IMG/VR virus record: IMGVR_UViG_3300046373_000123 | Location: 1-40,463 of that record | Length of the DNA stretch: 40,463 nucleotides | DNA from: a virus | Direction: 5' to 3' (one strand) | In this document: in pieces, positions 12,004 to 40,463 of the stretch | Numbering within the stretch: the first letter of the stretch is position 1 | Layout of the letters: each line of letters opens with the position of its first letter | The notes under the pieces: model-generated | The model's input: the letters and a program-made list of their open reading frames with translations, nothing else | Database searches by the model: none | Told to the model about the DNA's origin: nothing | Translations under genes and position numbers: made by a program

Positions 12004-12045
12004 ATGATTCTCCTGTACAATCGCGCGCAAAATTGAGGGATGCTC

Positions 12046-13179
12046 ATGTTGAATTCAATGGATCGAACCGGCGCGATACCAGCATTGACTGGCGTGCGCT
12101 TCTTCGCCGCGCTCATGGTGTTCTTTTCACACTATGTGGTACCTGGATCGAGCGGCTTCCTGCTGACAGTCCAAAACTCAGGTTATGCGGGAGTTACATT
12201 CTTTTTCATTTTATCGGGTTTCATTCTTGCCTATAACTACCTTGAAAAGTTTGAGAAAAATCCGACATCGCAAATAGGCGCCTTTTATTTTGCGCGGTTC
12301 TCTCGCGTCTATCCACTGTATGCATTTATGCTGCTTTACTTCTGGCTTATCCTGCCAGCAGACAAAAGCGTTGTTCCGCATATATTTGCAATACAAGCAT
12401 GGTATGACGATTTATTTATGGCGATGGGGTACAACACAGTTTCCTGGAGCATCAGTGTTGAAGCATTTCTATATTTGATGTTCCCGCTGATTATTCCGAT
12501 TCTAACTCTATTGGGAATCACGGCTTCAGCGAAGAGGCTTATCGCTTTGATGATCATTCTAGCTGCAACGGCTTTCGCGATTGCCTTCTATTTCTGGGCG
12601 ACCGGGAAAGGCGCTCTGATGCCAGCAGAGCCGAGTTCGGCGCACCGGTGGCTGTACCGAACGCCGTTGTCACGGCTGATAGACTTCACCATCGGCATCT
12701 GTGCTGCGATCTACTACATGCGCTTTTGGAAGGACACGCAAAGAAGCTCAAGCACCTGGACCGTCATCACCCTTGTCTCAATCGCCGGGCTCATTGTGAT
12801 CATGGGCAGCGAAACAGTCTTTTACTCTCCGTTTAGCTGGGATGCCGCCTACATTATCCCATTCACGCTCATTATCTTCGGTGTTGCGGCAGTGCAATCC
12901 AGCGCTGTGAGTCGGTTCCTTTCGACGCCCTCAATGATATTGCTCGGCGAGGCTTCTTTCGCGTTTTACCTGATCCACCTGATCATGAAAACCATGAAGC
13001 TGCTAAGGCCTGACGCAAGCATGTTGGAAGCCCTCATTATGCAGGCCGTCATGCTGACGATAGTGGTCTGCACCTCTATTGGTCTGCATCTCGTGATCGA
13101 AAAGCCAGCGCAGAACTTCCTGAGATCGGCCTTTCGTTCGCGAGCCAACGCTTATGTTGGGGTTGGCAGAAAGCCTTGA
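12046..13179 (+). CDS. Acyltransferase 3-family membrane protein, likely O-antigen modifying (377 aa)
   Basis: A multi-pass membrane acyltransferase. The family opening is clear (IPALTGVRFFAALMVFFSHY, catalytic-type His in FSHY), then VTFFFILSGFILAY, FYFARFSRVYPLY (R-x-R-YPLY), and WSISVEAFLYLMFP. About ten membrane helices. Phage members O-acetylate host lipopolysaccharide and change serotype, blocking superinfection. ATG 12046 is spaced six bases from GAGGG. It is on the opposite strand from the late genes and AT-rich (47 G+C in 12181-12300), so it is a moron acquired by transfer. Its own promoter is probable: TACAAT at 12016-12021, with no clear -35. Confidence 0.9.
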   Translation: MLNSMDRTGAIPALTGVRFFAALMVFFSHYVVPGSSGFLLTVQNSGYAGVTFFFILSGFILAYNYLEKFEKNPTSQIGAFYFARFSRVYPLYAFMLLYFWLILPADKSVVPHIFAIQAWYDDLFMAMGYNTVSWSISVEAFLYLMFPLIIPILTLLGITASAKRLIALMIILAATAFAIAFYFWATGKGALMPAEPSSAHRWLYRTPLSRLIDFTIGICAAIYYMRFWKDTQRSSSTWTVITLVSIAGLIVIMGSETVFYSPFSWDAAYIIPFTLIIFGVAAVQSSAVSRFLSTPSMILLGEASFAFYLIHLIMKTMKLLRPDASMLEALIMQAVMLTIVVCTSIGLHLVIEKPAQNFLRSAFRSRANAYVGVGRKP

Positions 13180-36312: not shown

Positions 36313-37255
36313 TTTCCCTCCTCCCTTCGCGGCTCATGATCCGCTGAGCGGCTTCTTGCCCGGCCTGCAAATTCGCCTGCTTGCGTTCAATCTGCTGGGC
36401 AGTTGTGGCGTTCATCTGGCGGTTGGTAACCCACTGGGTACGATACGACTCGGCCTTGGCTAGTAGGGAGCCTAGGTCGTGGCAATTGCGGATCAGGTAG
36501 GAGTCGTTGATGCCAACGTAGAATTCGGCAACTACGGCAGCTTCTGAGCCGAGACGCTTCCAGAGATCAACCACGTTCCGGTTTACCTTGGCATTGCGGA
36601 CTGGAGCGGCTTGGTAGCGCGACTGGTATGCGGCGGAGTAGGAAGACCAGATTTCACGGCAAGCTTCTTGGCGATCCGCCTCTGCAGCATCGATCTTTTT
36701 CGCGGCGCGCTTCGGCGAAGCTGGAGCGAGCACCAATGTCGTAGTCTCTGCTGTAGTCTTCTGTGTAATCTCTGTAATAGTTGTGCCGTTAGGGTCGCAC
36801 TTGTCATGCTCTTCCGGCAGGACTTGTTGTGCCGCATCGGTAGAACCAGTTGTGCCCTTTGGGCAGGACTTGTTGTGCTCTTTGGGCAGGACTGGGATTG
36901 CCTTTTCGCCCGACAGATAGCCCAGTAGAAGCTCGGTATCTATCCGAAAATGCATCTTGGCAGGAACGCCCTTGCGTACCTCGGCCAAAAGCTGAATCTG
37001 AGCAAGGCAGCGGCGAGCTGTACGAACTTCTTTGTTCGATAGGCCGATCTCCTCCTCCCATTCCAACTCGGTCTTGTAGAACCAGCCGTCGTTGGTCTTC
37101 TCAGTCCAGTAGACAGCTTGGGACAGAAACTGAGCCACCGAAGCGCTCAGGCCCAATACGCGCCTGAATGCCGGATACACGGCAACGGCGCTTCCGGCTA
37201 ACTCAGTGAGTTGCATCCTCAATCGACCTTTGCTTATCGCATGTAGTGCTGCCAT
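36299..37255 (-). CDS. O-like replication initiation protein (318 aa)
   Basis: N-terminal winged helix of phage replication proteins (LSASVAQFLSQAVYWTEKTN, WFYKTELEWEEEIGLSNKEV, RTARRCLAQIQLL). C-terminal about 130 residues are helical and basic. An origin is likely within the gene, but I see no clean iterons; only the KEHN.SCPKGTT-type coding repeats at 36775-36900 (three similar PEEH/PKEH phrases). Start ATG 37255; ATG 37216 (MQLTEL) is also possible. Confidence 0.75.
   Translation of the reverse strand: MAALHAISKGRLRMQLTELAGSAVAVYPAFRRVLGLSASVAQFLSQAVYWTEKTNDGWFYKTELEWEEEIGLSNKEVRTARRCLAQIQLLAEVRKGVPAKMHFRIDTELLLGYLSGEKAIPVLPKEHNKSCPKGTTGSTDAAQQVLPEEHDKCDPNGTTITEITQKTTAETTTLVLAPASPKRAAKKIDAAEADRQEACREIWSSYSAAYQSRYQAAPVRNAKVNRNVVDLWKRLGSEAAVVAEFYVGINDSYLIRNCHDLGSLLAKAESYRTQWVTNRQMNATTAQQIERKQANLQAGQEAAQRIMSREGRRENEFL
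36780..36900. repeat. Imperfect direct repeats inside the O-like gene, origin candidate
   Basis: Three similar stretches (each with TTGTTGTGC or CAGTTGTGCC and GGCAGGACT) recur at about 36779, 36819-36831, 36847-36876, encoding LPKEHNKSC, CPKGTTGS and LPEEHDKC-type phrases. Lambda and relatives carry origin iterons at the same place in O. Confidence 0.5.
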
Positions 37256-37312
37256 AATTGATCTCGCTGAACTTTGCTGTAGGAAGAGCCACCCTTGCCC
37301 GGTGGCTTTTTT
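37230..37312 (+). ncRNA. OOP-like antisense RNA candidate
   Basis: A + strand promoter-like pair TTGCTT (37230-37235) and CATAAT (37253-37258), 17-base spacer, is followed within 55 bases by a strong terminator at 37288-37312 that has its T run only on the + strand. The transcript would be about 50 nt, running against the PR operon between the O-like and the preceding small gene. Lambda's OOP RNA has the same site and direction. Not proven. Confidence 0.45.
37288..37312 (+). terminator. Intrinsic terminator on the + strand within the - strand operon
   Basis: GCCACC (37288-37293), loop of seven, GGTGGC (37301-37306), then TTTTTT. No T run on the - strand. Confidence 0.82.
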
Positions 37313-37332
37313 GTGTCTGGAATTTGGTAGTG

Positions 37333-37554
37333 CTAATTCGGGTCAGTTGTGGCCCTTTTTTGGCCCAGTAGATTTGTCGCGCATTCGATCGCGACAATCT
37401 TTGCTTTGGGCCTAACCGCCAATGTCAAACCACCCATGGCGATCCCTTCGATAACCAGCTCCTCAACTGCCCTGTCGAGACTCCATCCGTTCTGTTGAGC
37501 TAATTCCTCGATCTTCTCTTTCGTGCCTGGACTCAGGTCTTGGTATTCGAGCAC
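37333..37554 (-). CDS. Small regulator-like protein with GTG start (73 aa)
   Basis: The GTG at 37554 follows AAAGGAGGGCCAA, a near-perfect ribosome site; the frame opens far upstream but over the next gene. LEYQDLSPGTKEKIEELAQQ and WSLDRAVEELVIEGIAMGGL suggest a ribbon-helix-helix-like DNA binder. Role unknown; lies where lambda has cII. Confidence 0.6.
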   Translation of the reverse strand: MLEYQDLSPGTKEKIEELAQQNGWSLDRAVEELVIEGIAMGGLTLAVRPKAKIVAIECATNLLGQKRATTDPN

Positions 37555-37573
37555 TTGGCCCTCCTTTGGCCCA

Positions 37574-37780
37574 TCAGGCCGCGCTAGACTCTTTCCTGTC
37601 CTTTGCCAGCGCTTCGATTGCGCCGTTCTCGACGGCCCATTCAACGAGCATGTAGAGGAGGGTTCCGTGTTGCTTTTCGGCTCGGATCGCAGCGCGCGCG
37701 GTGATCTTGTCGAGCGTGCTGTTGAGGCTGACCTTGTGGCGCTTGTCACGGCGGTGGTCGTTTGGGTTGGCGTATCCCAT
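37574..37780 (-). CDS. Small basic protein of the immunity region (68 aa)
   Basis: ATG 37780 follows AAAGGAGAAACACCC. Basic start (YANPNDHRRDKRHKVSLNS), then helical TLDKITARAAIRAEKQHGTL, YMLVEWAVENGAIEAL. Possibly a DNA-binding regulator in the cII position, not recognised as CII. Confidence 0.6.
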   Translation of the reverse strand: MGYANPNDHRRDKRHKVSLNSTLDKITARAAIRAEKQHGTLLYMLVEWAVENGAIEALAKDRKESSAA

Positions 37781-37814
37781 GGGTGTTTCTCCTTTGTGGC
37801 TGTGGAATGGTTAT

Positions 37815-38021
37815 TCAGGCTGCGGATTTTTTGGCTGGCGCTTGCGAGGGAAAGGGCCGAACTTCTTCGGCGGTATAACTGCCGTCTGGGTGCTGAGTGA
37901 CGTAGATGTCACGGCCAAGGCGGATTGCCTTGCTGAGGCCACCTTGAGTCAGGTCGAGCAGGCGAGCTGCTTCGGTCTGGCCCTTCTCCTGGGCGAACTG
38001 CGCGATGTGGATACGGGTCAT
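37815..38021 (-). CDS. cro: Cro-like repressor (68 aa)
   Basis: Cro binds the same operators as CI and favours lytic growth. FAQEKGQTEAARLLDLTQGG followed by LSKAIRLGRDIYVTQHPDG is the lambda-Cro-type helix-turn-helix and beta hairpin. Start ATG 38021 has GGAG seven bases ahead and lies about 23 bases from the PR start; an ATG at 38033 leaves only about 11. Confidence 0.87.
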   Translation of the reverse strand: MTRIHIAQFAQEKGQTEAARLLDLTQGGLSKAIRLGRDIYVTQHPDGSYTAEEVRPFPSQAPAKKSAA

Positions 38022-38050
38022 GGCTGACTCCATGGTTGTACATGGCTCAG

Positions 38051-38079
38051 ATATTACCTATGGCATTTACGAAACACAA
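38051..38079 (-). promoter_or_regulatory. PR promoter
   Basis: On the - strand -35 TTGTGT (38074-38079), 17-base spacer, -10 TAATAT (38051-38056), pointing at cro. Both elements are covered by operator sites. Confidence 0.75.
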
Positions 38080-38116
38080 TACCTATGGCATTTGCGGCAT
38101 TAATACCGGCAGGAAT
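38053..38116. promoter_or_regulatory. Operator region OR (two good sites and one degenerate)
   Basis: ATTACCTATGGCATT (38053-38067), AATACCTATGGCATT (38078-38092), spaced 25 bp, and a degenerate AATACCGGCAGGAAT (38102-38116) 24 bp on. Half-sites are AWTACC/GGYATT with a 3-bp centre. The third site covers the cI ribosome site. Same motif as OL. Confidence 0.75.
38066..38094 (+). promoter_or_regulatory. PRM candidate
   Basis: Weak + strand pair TTTACG (38066-38071) and CATTTG (38089-38094), spacer 17, expected start near 38101, about 20 bases from the cI start. Weak as maintenance promoters are; placement fits activation by repressor at the 38053 site. Confidence 0.35.
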
Positions 38117-38121
38117 AAGCT

Positions 38122-38904
38122 TTGGACATGAGCAAAAAACCACTACCCCCAGACAGGAAGGAAGAGTGTCTTCGCTTGAAGGCGATCTTTAATTCCAGGA
38201 AGTCTGACTTGGGCCTGACCCAAGAGAAATTGGCGCATGCTCTTGAGATGAATCAGAGTTCTGTCAGCCACTACCTAAACGGCGTAAACCCTCTTAACAC
38301 GAGCGTTGCAGCAGCTTTCGCACGCCTGCTAGGCGTTGAGGTCGCCGACTTCAGTACGCGCCTCGCCACCGAAATAGCCAACTTGACGACGGGCGGTACT
38401 GATCTACGTCATGAAATGTCGAACGCCATGTTATTCGGCCCGGTAGAAGTGTGGGACGATGAGACTCCGCTCGATGATGATGAGGTCTCTGTGCCATTCC
38501 TCAAGGAAGTAGAGTTATCAGCCGGAAGTGGTAGGACAGCAGTACAGGAATCGTCGAACAGGAAGTTGAGATTTGGGAAAATCAGCCTAAGGAATCAAGG
38601 CGTAGACCCCAACAGCGCGAAGTGCGTGACCGTCACCGGGAACAGCATGGAGCCAGTATTGCGTAATGGAACTACGGTAGCGATCGACACTGCCAATGTG
38701 CGGATCATCGATGGCGACATGTATGCCATAGACCACGCCGGCCAACTGCGCGTAAAACAAATATATAGAATGCCAGGTGGAGGAATGAGATTGCGAAGCT
38801 TCAACCGAGATGAGCACCCAGATGAGGAATACACCGCACAGCAGATCCGCGATCAGGATCTTGTCGTGCTAGGCCGCGTGTTTTGGTCTGGTGGATTTCA
38901 CTGA
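38122..38904 (+). CDS. cI: CI repressor, S24/LexA-type self-cleaving (260 aa)
   Basis: N-terminal HTH (LGLTQEKLAHALEMNQSSVS, YLNGVNPLNTSVAAAFARLL), middle linker with an Ala-Gly in ELSAGSGR as the likely cleavage site, and a C-terminal S24 peptidase domain with Ser in TVTGNSMEPVLRNG and Lys in QLRVKQIYR. Thus inducible by RecA. A TTG at 38122 is spaced seven bases from AGGA; the first ATG is at 38128 with 13-base spacing, two codons in. Divergent from cro. Confidence 0.93.
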   Translation: MDMSKKPLPPDRKEECLRLKAIFNSRKSDLGLTQEKLAHALEMNQSSVSHYLNGVNPLNTSVAAAFARLLGVEVADFSTRLATEIANLTTGGTDLRHEMSNAMLFGPVEVWDDETPLDDDEVSVPFLKEVELSAGSGRTAVQESSNRKLRFGKISLRNQGVDPNSAKCVTVTGNSMEPVLRNGTTVAIDTANVRIIDGDMYAIDHAGQLRVKQIYRMPGGGMRLRSFNRDEHPDEEYTAQQIRDQDLVVLGRVFWSGGFH

Positions 38905-38921
38905 CCGCAAGGAGGCTGCGA

Positions 38922-39164
38922 ATGAGCAAGGTTCCGTGGGCGGCAGTCGCTGCTCTTCTTATTGGCGTTATGGTGGGCCGTATGACGGCGCCGGGCGATC
39001 CGAACAGTTCTCCAACCTATGGCGACACTGGTCTACCAAAAAACTGCAGGGCCGTTGTCCAATCCAGTATTGATGCATGGCAGCTCAAGCAGTATTCAGC
39101 CGACGATATTTTTGCCTCGCTCAGCCGTAACTGCGGCGCCAACGGGTATTCATGGGGCAAGTGA
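38922..39164 (+). CDS. Membrane-anchored protein cotranscribed with cI (80 aa)
   Basis: ATG 38922 follows AAGGAGGCTGCG, 17 bases after cI. N-terminal membrane anchor (residues 5-21, PWAAVAALLIGVMVGRM), then a periplasmic-looking domain with two Cys (LPKNCRAVVQSSIDAWQLKQ, SLSRNCGANG). Followed by a terminator, so it forms a two-gene lysogenic operon. Expression in lysogens suggests superinfection exclusion or host modification; unproven. Confidence 0.72.
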   Translation: MSKVPWAAVAALLIGVMVGRMTAPGDPNSSPTYGDTGLPKNCRAVVQSSIDAWQLKQYSADDIFASLSRNCGANGYSWGK

Positions 39165-39195
39165 TTCCGTGATGTAGATCAAAGTCGTATTGAAT

Positions 39196-39219
39196 AGCCC
39201 GCCGATGTGCGGGCTTTTT
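39196..39219 (+). terminator. Intrinsic terminator of the repressor operon
   Basis: AGCCCGC (39196-39202), loop CGATGT, GCGGGCT (39209-39215), T run to 39219. Confidence 0.87.
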
Positions 39220-39238
39220 CTCGCCTTCGAAAAATAAT

Positions 39239-39278
39239 ATTGCCATCGGTATTGACGAGTAATAATGCCAGTGGTAAT
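39239..39278. promoter_or_regulatory. Operator region OL (two sites)
   Basis: ATTGCCATCGGTATT (39239-39253) and AATGCCAGTGGTAAT (39264-39278), 25 bp apart, same motif and spacing as OR. They overlap PL. Confidence 0.75.
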
Positions 39279-39280
39279 TT
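39252..39280 (+). promoter_or_regulatory. PL promoter
   Basis: -35 TTGACG (39252-39257), 17-base spacer, -10 TAATTT (39275-39280), covered by the OL sites. It reads into the + strand early operon through the cut of the circle. Confidence 0.75.
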
Positions 39281-39532
39281 TAATTCCAAGCCGAACGAAA
39301 CACCGGCCCGCAACAAGGCAGCGATGAACCGGCCTCAACGGTTCAGAGGGTTGGCAACTGACCCGGGTGTGCAGCGTAAAGCACCGTAATCAGTTTTCTG
39401 GCGGACAGGGTCGCGGCTGGAAGAACAATCTGAGATTCAAGCCGGTGGCCAGCCAGTAGCGGGTCACGGAAAACAGATTTCCTCGATGCGCTTGGCAACA
39501 GGCGCATCAGGGAAATCAAACAGGAGCAGCAC
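39281..39532 (+). other. PL leader, no clear gene
   Basis: 252 bases between PL and the first well-supported gene. A 21-codon frame (MNRPQRFRG start, 39324) is present but weak. I did not find a clean boxA/boxB antitermination signal. Confidence 0.4.
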
Positions 39533-39700
39533 ATGAAAATCGTTATCTGGCTTGGAATTGTTGTTTGGTTGCTGGCGTCGTGGGTCACGCATCTTGTTGT
39601 CTGCTTCAAGGCGGCAAGCTGGGGCTTTCTGATTGCCGGCGCGATCTTCTTCCCAGTGGCTGTAGTGCACGGCACAGGGGCATGGTTCGGCGCCTGGTAA
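39533..39700 (+). CDS. First PL gene: two-helix membrane protein (55 aa)
   Basis: ATG 39533 follows CAGGAGCAGCAC. Two hydrophobic segments (IVIWLGIVVWLLASWVTHLV and FLIAGAIFFPVAVVHG) flank FKAASWG. Small PL-proximal membrane proteins can protect the cell from other phages or act on division; role here unknown. Confidence 0.65.
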   Translation: MKIVIWLGIVVWLLASWVTHLVVCFKAASWGFLIAGAIFFPVAVVHGTGAWFGAW

Positions 39701-39826
39701 GCATCACTTCTGCGCATTCCCAGAGTGCGCAGCGGGATGCGGAAGACCAGCAACCTCCGCGCAACGCGGCCCCTGCATCACCTCTGATGGCCTCCTGCTG
39801 TTTCAGGATCGCCATCTGTCTTTACA

Positions 39827-39853
39827 AATGCCTCTCAAACCCCGGGAGGCATT
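39827..39853. repeat. Perfect inverted repeat before the DUF7666-like gene
   Basis: AATGCCTC (39827-39834) and GAGGCATT (39846-39853), 11-base loop rich in C and G. No T run follows, so not a typical terminator; may form an RNA hairpin upstream of the ribosome site. The rest of 39701-39881 holds no convincing gene. Confidence 0.6.
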
Positions 39854-39881
39854 CGAAAGCCAAACCGACAAGGAAACCCCA

Positions 39882-40463
39882 ATGAAAACTCCAAAGCCGG
39901 AAACGGCATTGATTCTGCGCACCTGCAATGCCGACTTGACCAGCCATGGCGGTTTTCAATGGCCCAGCGAGATCGGCGCCGTGGTTACCGCTCCAGACTG
40001 GCGCGATGACGACGAATGCGGTCATGGACTGCACGGATGGTTGTTCGGCCAGGGCGATTCCAGCGCAAGCAACAGCATCGGCAAGCCAAATGCAAAATGG
40101 CTTGTTGTCGAGGCCCTGATCAGCGACCTGAAATCGCTCGGCGGGAAAGTGAAATTCCCAACCTGTACCGTTCGCCACATCGGCGACAAACATAGCGCTA
40201 CCCAGTTTCTGCTGGAGAACGAACCTCGCGCCGCAAGCGTTGCTGTGATCGGTGTCACGCTGACTGGCGGCGACGACTCCACGCTGACTGGCGGCGACGA
40301 CTCCACGCTGACTGGCGGCGACGACTCCACGCTGACTGGCGGCGACCGCTCCACGCTGACTGGCGGCGACGACTCCACGCTGACTGGCGGCGACCGCTCC
40401 ACGCTGACTGGCGGCGACCGCTCCACGCTGACTGGCGGCTACCGCTCCACGCTGACTGGCGGC
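39882..40463 (+). CDS. DUF7666-like protein with ice-nucleation-type octapeptide repeats (N-terminal part, continues at base 1)
   Basis: Residues 1-125 form a globular domain with a Cys/His/Gly patch (ECGHGLHGW, about 45-53), recalled from phage proteins labelled DUF7666. From residue 126 to 242 the joined protein has one partial and 14 full copies of an 8-residue unit, GG(D/Y)(R/D)STLT. The second variable position is Arg or Asp; the first is Asp, with two consecutive Tyr. Each unit offers a T-L-T triplet, the TxT pattern of beta-solenoid antifreeze and ice-nucleation proteins. Start ATG follows AAGGAAACCCCA. It is the second clear gene after PL. Repeats are near identical at DNA level, a sign of recent expansion or homogenisation. 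A beta-solenoid fold is inferred; ice binding is only one possible role. Confidence 0.85.
   Translation, partial: MKTPKPETALILRTCNADLTSHGGFQWPSEIGAVVTAPDWRDDDECGHGLHGWLFGQGDSSASNSIGKPNAKWLVVEALISDLKSLGGKVKFPTCTVRHIGDKHSATQFLLENEPRAASVAVIGVTLTGGDDSTLTGGDDSTLTGGDDSTLTGGDRSTLTGGDDSTLTGGDRSTLTGGDRSTLTGGYRSTLTGG
40257..40463 (+). repeat. 24-bp tandem repeat array (right part)
   Basis: Tandem copies of a 24-bp unit (ACGCTGACTGGCGGCGACSR-type, then CTCC) fill this stretch after codon 125 of the gene. In order the variable dipeptides are DD, DD, DD, DR, DD, DR, DR, YR. The last 119 bases equal bases 1-119 of the window. The array continues at the window start. Confidence 0.97.

Follow-up and report, generated by a model that had tools for sequence, protein, structure and literature searches.

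The stretch of DNA analysed here, referred to as the window, comprises all 40,463 bases of the IMG/VR virus record IMGVR_UViG_3300046373_000123. Towards its right end lie a repressor gene of the lambda cI type and a cro gene, followed on the cI side by a small cargo gene and a terminator:

37815 to 38021, minus strand: cro, 68 amino acids
38128 to 38904, plus strand: cI repressor gene, 258 amino acids, with a lambda-type helix-turn-helix domain and an S24 peptidase domain
38922 to 39164, plus strand: 80-amino-acid open reading frame with no family match, occupying the cargo slot between cI and PL (the place of lambda rexAB)
39196 to 39219, plus strand: intrinsic terminator at the end of the cI transcript, immediately ahead of OL

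The first 86 residues of CI match the lambda repressor (best solved chain 1lli, E=3e-16) and the protein retains both the N-terminal KKPL arm and the lambda residues Q33, Q44, S45, N52 and N55. In lambda, these residues contact the operator. The C-terminal domain matches Peptidase_S24 (E=6e-22), GNSM, RVKQI and SAGSG motifs are present in the CI sequence and, judged by sequence, this is a predicted self-cleaving domain of the S24 (LexA-like) type. A lambda-like C-terminal domain was not detectable by sequence, the alignment to lambda covering the N-terminal domain only, and lambda-type cooperativity is therefore assumed. The cro product matches Pfam Cro (E=5e-19) and lambda Cro (E=3e-11). Its start is likely the ATG at 38021, which follows a GGAG, and less likely the longer ATG at 38033, since the cro starts of relatives lie 32-34 bp from the operator O1. 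The Cro type next to O1 was identical in 64/64 operator loci with searchable upstream DNA.

An O-like replication gene and a NinG gene are found on the PR side of the window, the former containing five 23-bp iteron-like repeats (36780-36893), as expected for a lambda-type origin. A Bet-like annealing protein is encoded on the plus strand and would follow PL if the contig were circular. Both window ends (1-265 and 40256-40463) fall within one 24-bp tandem repeat, and the termini overlap exactly over 119 bp. The genome is therefore probably circular or terminally redundant, with the break of the contig falling in a repeat-bearing DUF7666 gene. No cII or N gene was found among the open reading frames scanned in the window, nor any Rfam match within 37000-40463. 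At 12040-13176, on the plus strand, there is an O-antigen-acetylase-like gene (phrog_3333, phrog_6705), a possible seroconversion moron.

The cI gene is flanked by copies of a palindrome, AWTRCC-N3-GGYAWT (pattern AWTRCCNNNGGYAWT), which has four exact matches in the 40,463-base window and none beyond these. They form two pairs, OR and OL, each with a start-to-start spacing of 25 bp, and are accompanied by the proposed promoters PR, PRM and PL and by less perfect sites (no strand is assigned to the operators):

38051 to 38079, minus strand: PR, TTGTGT-17-TAATAT, reading into cro
38053 to 38067: operator O1R, ATTACCTATGGCATT, its last four bases (minus strand) overlapping the PR -10
38078 to 38092: operator O2R, AATACCTATGGCATT, overlapping the first two bases of the PR -35 and the first base of the PRM -35
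38092 to 38121, plus strand: PRM, TTGCGG-18-TAAGCT, with a start predicted on or beside the first base of the cI ATG
38102 to 38116: operator O3R, AATACCGGCAGGAAT, between the PRM -35 and -10, with two mismatches to the pattern
39220 to 39234: possible OL3 relic, CTCGCCTTCGAAAAA, with five mismatches, 19 bp from O2L
39239 to 39253: operator O2L, ATTGCCATCGGTATT, overlapping the first two bases of the PL -35
39252 to 39280, plus strand: PL, TTGACG-17-TAATTT, reading rightward, away from cI
39264 to 39278: operator O1L, AATGCCAGTGGTAAT, overlapping the first four bases of the PL -10

Across 300 first-order Markov sequences of window length, a mean of 0.03 sites was obtained and two sites 15-40 bp apart never occurred. 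The four sites, in two pairs of 25 bp each, had been reported in an initial annotation of this DNA, and both the exact matches and the Markov null agree with it. Its statement that OR and OL are separate and 1.2 kb apart is borne out by the O1R-O1L centre distance of 1211 bp. The same annotation placed each pair over the -35 and -10 of a promoter with a 17-bp spacer, which stands with the refinement that O2 reaches only the first two bases of the -35 and O1 only the first four of the -10.

Measured against the operator annotation of the lambda genome (NC_001416), the layout is closely similar. The centres of O3, O2 and O1 lie at -19/-43/-68 from the cI start here and at -19/-42/-66 in lambda, the CI DNA-binding domain and Cro are homologous, and the gene order is identical. 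In both, the PRM -10 lies just before the cI ATG, O2 and O1 overlap the same promoter bases and OL lies beyond the cargo slot. Lambda, too, is equally spaced at OR and OL, its OL1-OL2 and OR1-OR2 both being 24 bp. Among the differences is the code: lambda's own half-site, TATCACCGC, is not that of the window, whose half-site reads AWTRCC in contrast to ATCACC in lambda (position 4, C to T). A single exception apart, T occupies this position in the O1 and O2 halves throughout the dereplicated loci. Furthermore, spacing is 25/24 here as opposed to 24/23 in lambda, the non-consensus half of O3 is here the cI-proximal one, OL3 is a relic at most, and OL and OR are separated by 1.2 kb rather than lambda's 2.4 kb. 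Among Pseudomonas phages, the LKA5 group (LKA5, PA8, Epa33 and F_ET605sp) has a CI N-terminal domain 77% identical to that of the window, the same Cro type, OR sites at -75/-50/-26 and an OL pair 1.2 kb downstream; it differs in its 26-bp OL spacing and in an O3 closer to consensus, and in the LKA5 record the operators carry no annotation. Pseudomonas phage F116 likewise encodes a CI-like repressor and a Cro-type protein in the same order, but with the recognition helix TQSAASHYLTGKN and without such an operator pair. The Pfl 6 Cro of P. fluorescens Pf-5 (2pij), compared by protein alone, is related (E=1e-7). Correlations between Cro helices and half-sites have been published.

A generic sigma-70 scan detected none of PR, PL and PRM (0 matches, 1.4 expected in shuffles), so support for these promoters is positional and comparative rather than a matter of consensus strength. 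Ab initio promoters are annotated in the LKA5 record at places matching the proposed PR, PRM and PL, and the PR -10 TAATAT is conserved across dereplicated loci. Among 33 distinct loci, PRM has a TTG at the O2 edge in 32 (TAG in the remaining one), a spacer of 17 or 18, a TANNAT -10 in 32 (the sole exception being the window, with TAAGCT) and 6 nt between the -10 and the cI ATG in 30, the window having 6 nt as well. By position in these 33 loci, therefore, PRM has O2 at its -35 and a predicted transcript start at the cI ATG; given the distance of 6 nt between its -10 and the ATG, a leaderless cI message is probable, starting at or adjacent to the ATG as in lambda. The third site of OR, O3R, lies 24 bp from O2R and shares one base with the PRM -10, the last of the site being the first of the -10. 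A counterpart at -26 (within 3 bp), with a right half ending in GGAAT, is present in all relatives listed. This cI-proximal half invariably ends in GGAAT and never fits GGYAWT, which argues that the asymmetry of O3 is conserved rather than decayed; it may tune the binding of Cro versus CI, or serve PRM.

To place the locus among its relatives, CI homologues were collected by protein alone, blind to operators, and were combined with annotated phages and deduplicated; they are related by descent and the following counts are phylogenetically non-independent. The operator pair, with its start 71-75 bp upstream of cI (the O1R counterparts lying at -71 to -75) and a spacing of 25 bp, is present in all 23 of the 23 distinct relatives (window included) that share the recognition helix NQSSVSHY(L/M)NG(V/I)N, in contrast to 0/84 relatives with other recognition helices. 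These 84 include 72 whose C-terminal domain is 60% or more identical but whose N-terminus is different (0/72), whilst the pair was retained in 7/7 relatives with a C-terminal domain less than 40% identical. In 20 dereplicated OR regions, O1 and O2 hold 1.9 and 1.7 bits per column, respectively, versus 0.8-1.0 in flanks and gaps, and the O1R half-sites TATTACC and AAATGCC are near-invariant; the corresponding O3 figure, 1.07 bits per column, is an underestimate, since the O2-O3 distance varies between loci (23 or 24). A scan of 2.9 million viral contigs, with a free gap of 0-30 bp and the site letters fixed, and thus informative on spacing rather than on site sequence, returned OR pairs exclusively with a gap of 10, i.e. 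a 25 bp spacing (33/33), and the same was true of the OL pairs (19/19), each of which lies on an OR-carrying contig. The OL spacing is 26 bp, with promoter hexamers one base further apart, in LKA5, L019 and L090 (different OL sequence), whose OR spacing remains 25. This co-variation suggests that the 25-bp spacing is probably set by the locking of operator pairs to promoters with a 17-bp spacer, and its constancy with different CI C-terminal domains fits the same explanation. The sites themselves, their number, spacing, register and conservation, and their tie to the CI recognition helix are all direct observations.

Other features of the relatives vary. Four of them (L134, L142, L153 and L158) have the same operators and a CI of only 191 amino acids; in L134 (4001-5435) this protein lacks an S24 domain, and the gene of a 292-amino-acid HipA-like kinase (PF20613, E=6e-6, just below the cut-off), accompanied by a second open reading frame, overlaps that of the repressor. 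Induction in phages of the L134 type is possibly not RecA-based. The cargo in the cI-PL slot also differs (L090, L130, L137, L134 and others), and includes a RhuM-family protein (PADLOC PDC-S05), a weakly matching SIR2-like protein and several open reading frames without family. In L009 (PseuP_224), sites of another kind that resemble operators (ATTACCCGTAGGTAAT and similar, the spacer being even) form a series at approximately 1640-1710, preceding a repressor with a different N-terminal domain.

We are highly confident that a Pseudomonas-type lambdoid phage has its immunity region here, working as the CI/Cro switch proposed below. A lambda-like switch had been suggested in the initial annotation, and it draws strong support from the CI and Cro homologies, the lambda register of the sites and the association with the CI helix. 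We infer its operation, from CI and Cro binding through PRM activation and the filling order of O3 to induction, as follows. CI dimers would occupy O1 and O2 at both OR and OL and so turn off PR, which serves cro and the replication side, and PL. The dimer at O2R would contact RNA polymerase at PRM and activate its own gene, giving a message that is probably leaderless. O3R, inside PRM, would be filled by Cro first and then by CI at high level, in either case shutting PRM, and RecA-stimulated self-cleavage through the S24 domain would lead to phage induction.

Several alternative readings bear on this proposal. The motif was defined after the sites had been seen, as would suit a view of the operators as chance matches, or as shared ancestry without function. 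A chance origin is ruled out by the Markov null described above, which yielded no pairs, and a reversed-pattern control also gave zero (0 pairs in the viral contig scan). Ancestry alone sits poorly with sites that are near-invariant across 20 dereplicated loci whose flanks have diverged, and with an OL retained behind cargo genes differing in length; the combined probability of these two explanations is negligible. It could also be supposed that the sites serve mainly Cro or a host factor, CI acting elsewhere, as the Cro type is tied to them just as tightly as the CI helix. Nevertheless, their positions are those common to lambda CI and Cro, the lambda contact residues Q44, S45 and N55 are retained in CI, and the operators track the CI helix even when the remainder of CI is swapped, rendering this alternative extremely unlikely. 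For the third OR site, a conserved translation signal has to be weighed, in which GGAAT would act as the Shine-Dalgarno of a leadered cI message and the site would be no operator; the invariance of GGAAT and its departure from the GGYAWT consensus are in its favour. However, 11 nt separate the end of GGAAT from the ATG, and GGA lies further still, a distance too great for a normal Shine-Dalgarno. A TANNAT -10 that starts on the last base of GGAAT stands 6 nt before the ATG in 30/33 loci; the site also keeps its left half, ATTACC, and the offset of -19 seen for lambda OR3. We consider such a signal very unlikely, and the ribosome-site reading of O3 was rejected on geometry: with the PRM -10 only 6 nt from the ATG, O3R probably lies upstream of the transcript. 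The initial annotation had described a degenerate third site at OR, an unusual one lying over the cI ribosome site; the site and its two mismatches are upheld, whereas its unusual character and its placement are not, since it holds the lambda OR3 position inside PRM. By these sequence features it is an ordinary OR3.

Any interaction between OL and OR is a separate matter. Lambda forms a loop of about 2.3 kb between OL and OR, for which two sets with three operators each reportedly perform better than two sets with two (PMC5880393). The OL of the window has two sites, the third place keeping only CTCGCC, and no clear OL3 was found there beyond the five-mismatch relic. Of 22 dereplicated relatives, eight carry a full half-site 19-20 bp upstream of O2L, the only offsets within 14-31 at which one occurs, in agreement with the 20 bp of lambda OL2-OL3. 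A loop between OL and OR is, by analogy with lambda, plausible here. OR and OL may instead be two separate local switches without a loop, their equal spacing reflecting a shared promoter geometry: O1 and O2 are fixed on promoter hexamers, so that a 17-bp spacer yields 25 bp, and OL and OR differ (26 versus 25 bp) in LKA5-type phages and two other relatives. The OL-OR distance, moreover, ranges from 0.9 to 4.1 kb among relatives, making tight helical phasing unlikely, and the window is without a clear OL3. Against this stand the loop formed by lambda with the same layout and the retention of an OL3-like half-site at lambda spacing in several relatives. Independent local switches are a serious contender, to which we give somewhat less than half of our belief.

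By the sequence features tested, the arrangement belongs with the lambda-type switch; it is real, well conserved and basically familiar. Its operator code is distinct from that of lambda and common to the LKA5-type phages and many Pseudomonas prophages. No published description of these operators was found in a search that mostly excluded subscription papers, and this is not proof of novelty; the portions seen of two reports on CI and Cro of Pseudomonas lambdoid phages (PMC8508860, PMC7326022) give no operator sequences. With this locus, a lambda-type switch that is complete and open to testing is available outside the enterics; its recognition helix, which departs from that of lambda at few positions, would read a second operator code. 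It is tempting to propose that one operator code and geometry define one broad immunity class, in which the operators travel as one module with Cro and the CI DNA-binding domain, whilst the CI sensing domain is exchanged, including for a non-S24 form beside a HipA-like kinase, across otherwise unlike Pseudomonas phages. This proposal, which we hold tentatively and at just short of an even chance, would mean that the induction signal could change with the specificity of immunity remaining constant. The domain-swap pattern is a natural experiment that parts operator recognition from induction, and the shared code predicts which Pseudomonas phages should be mutually immune.
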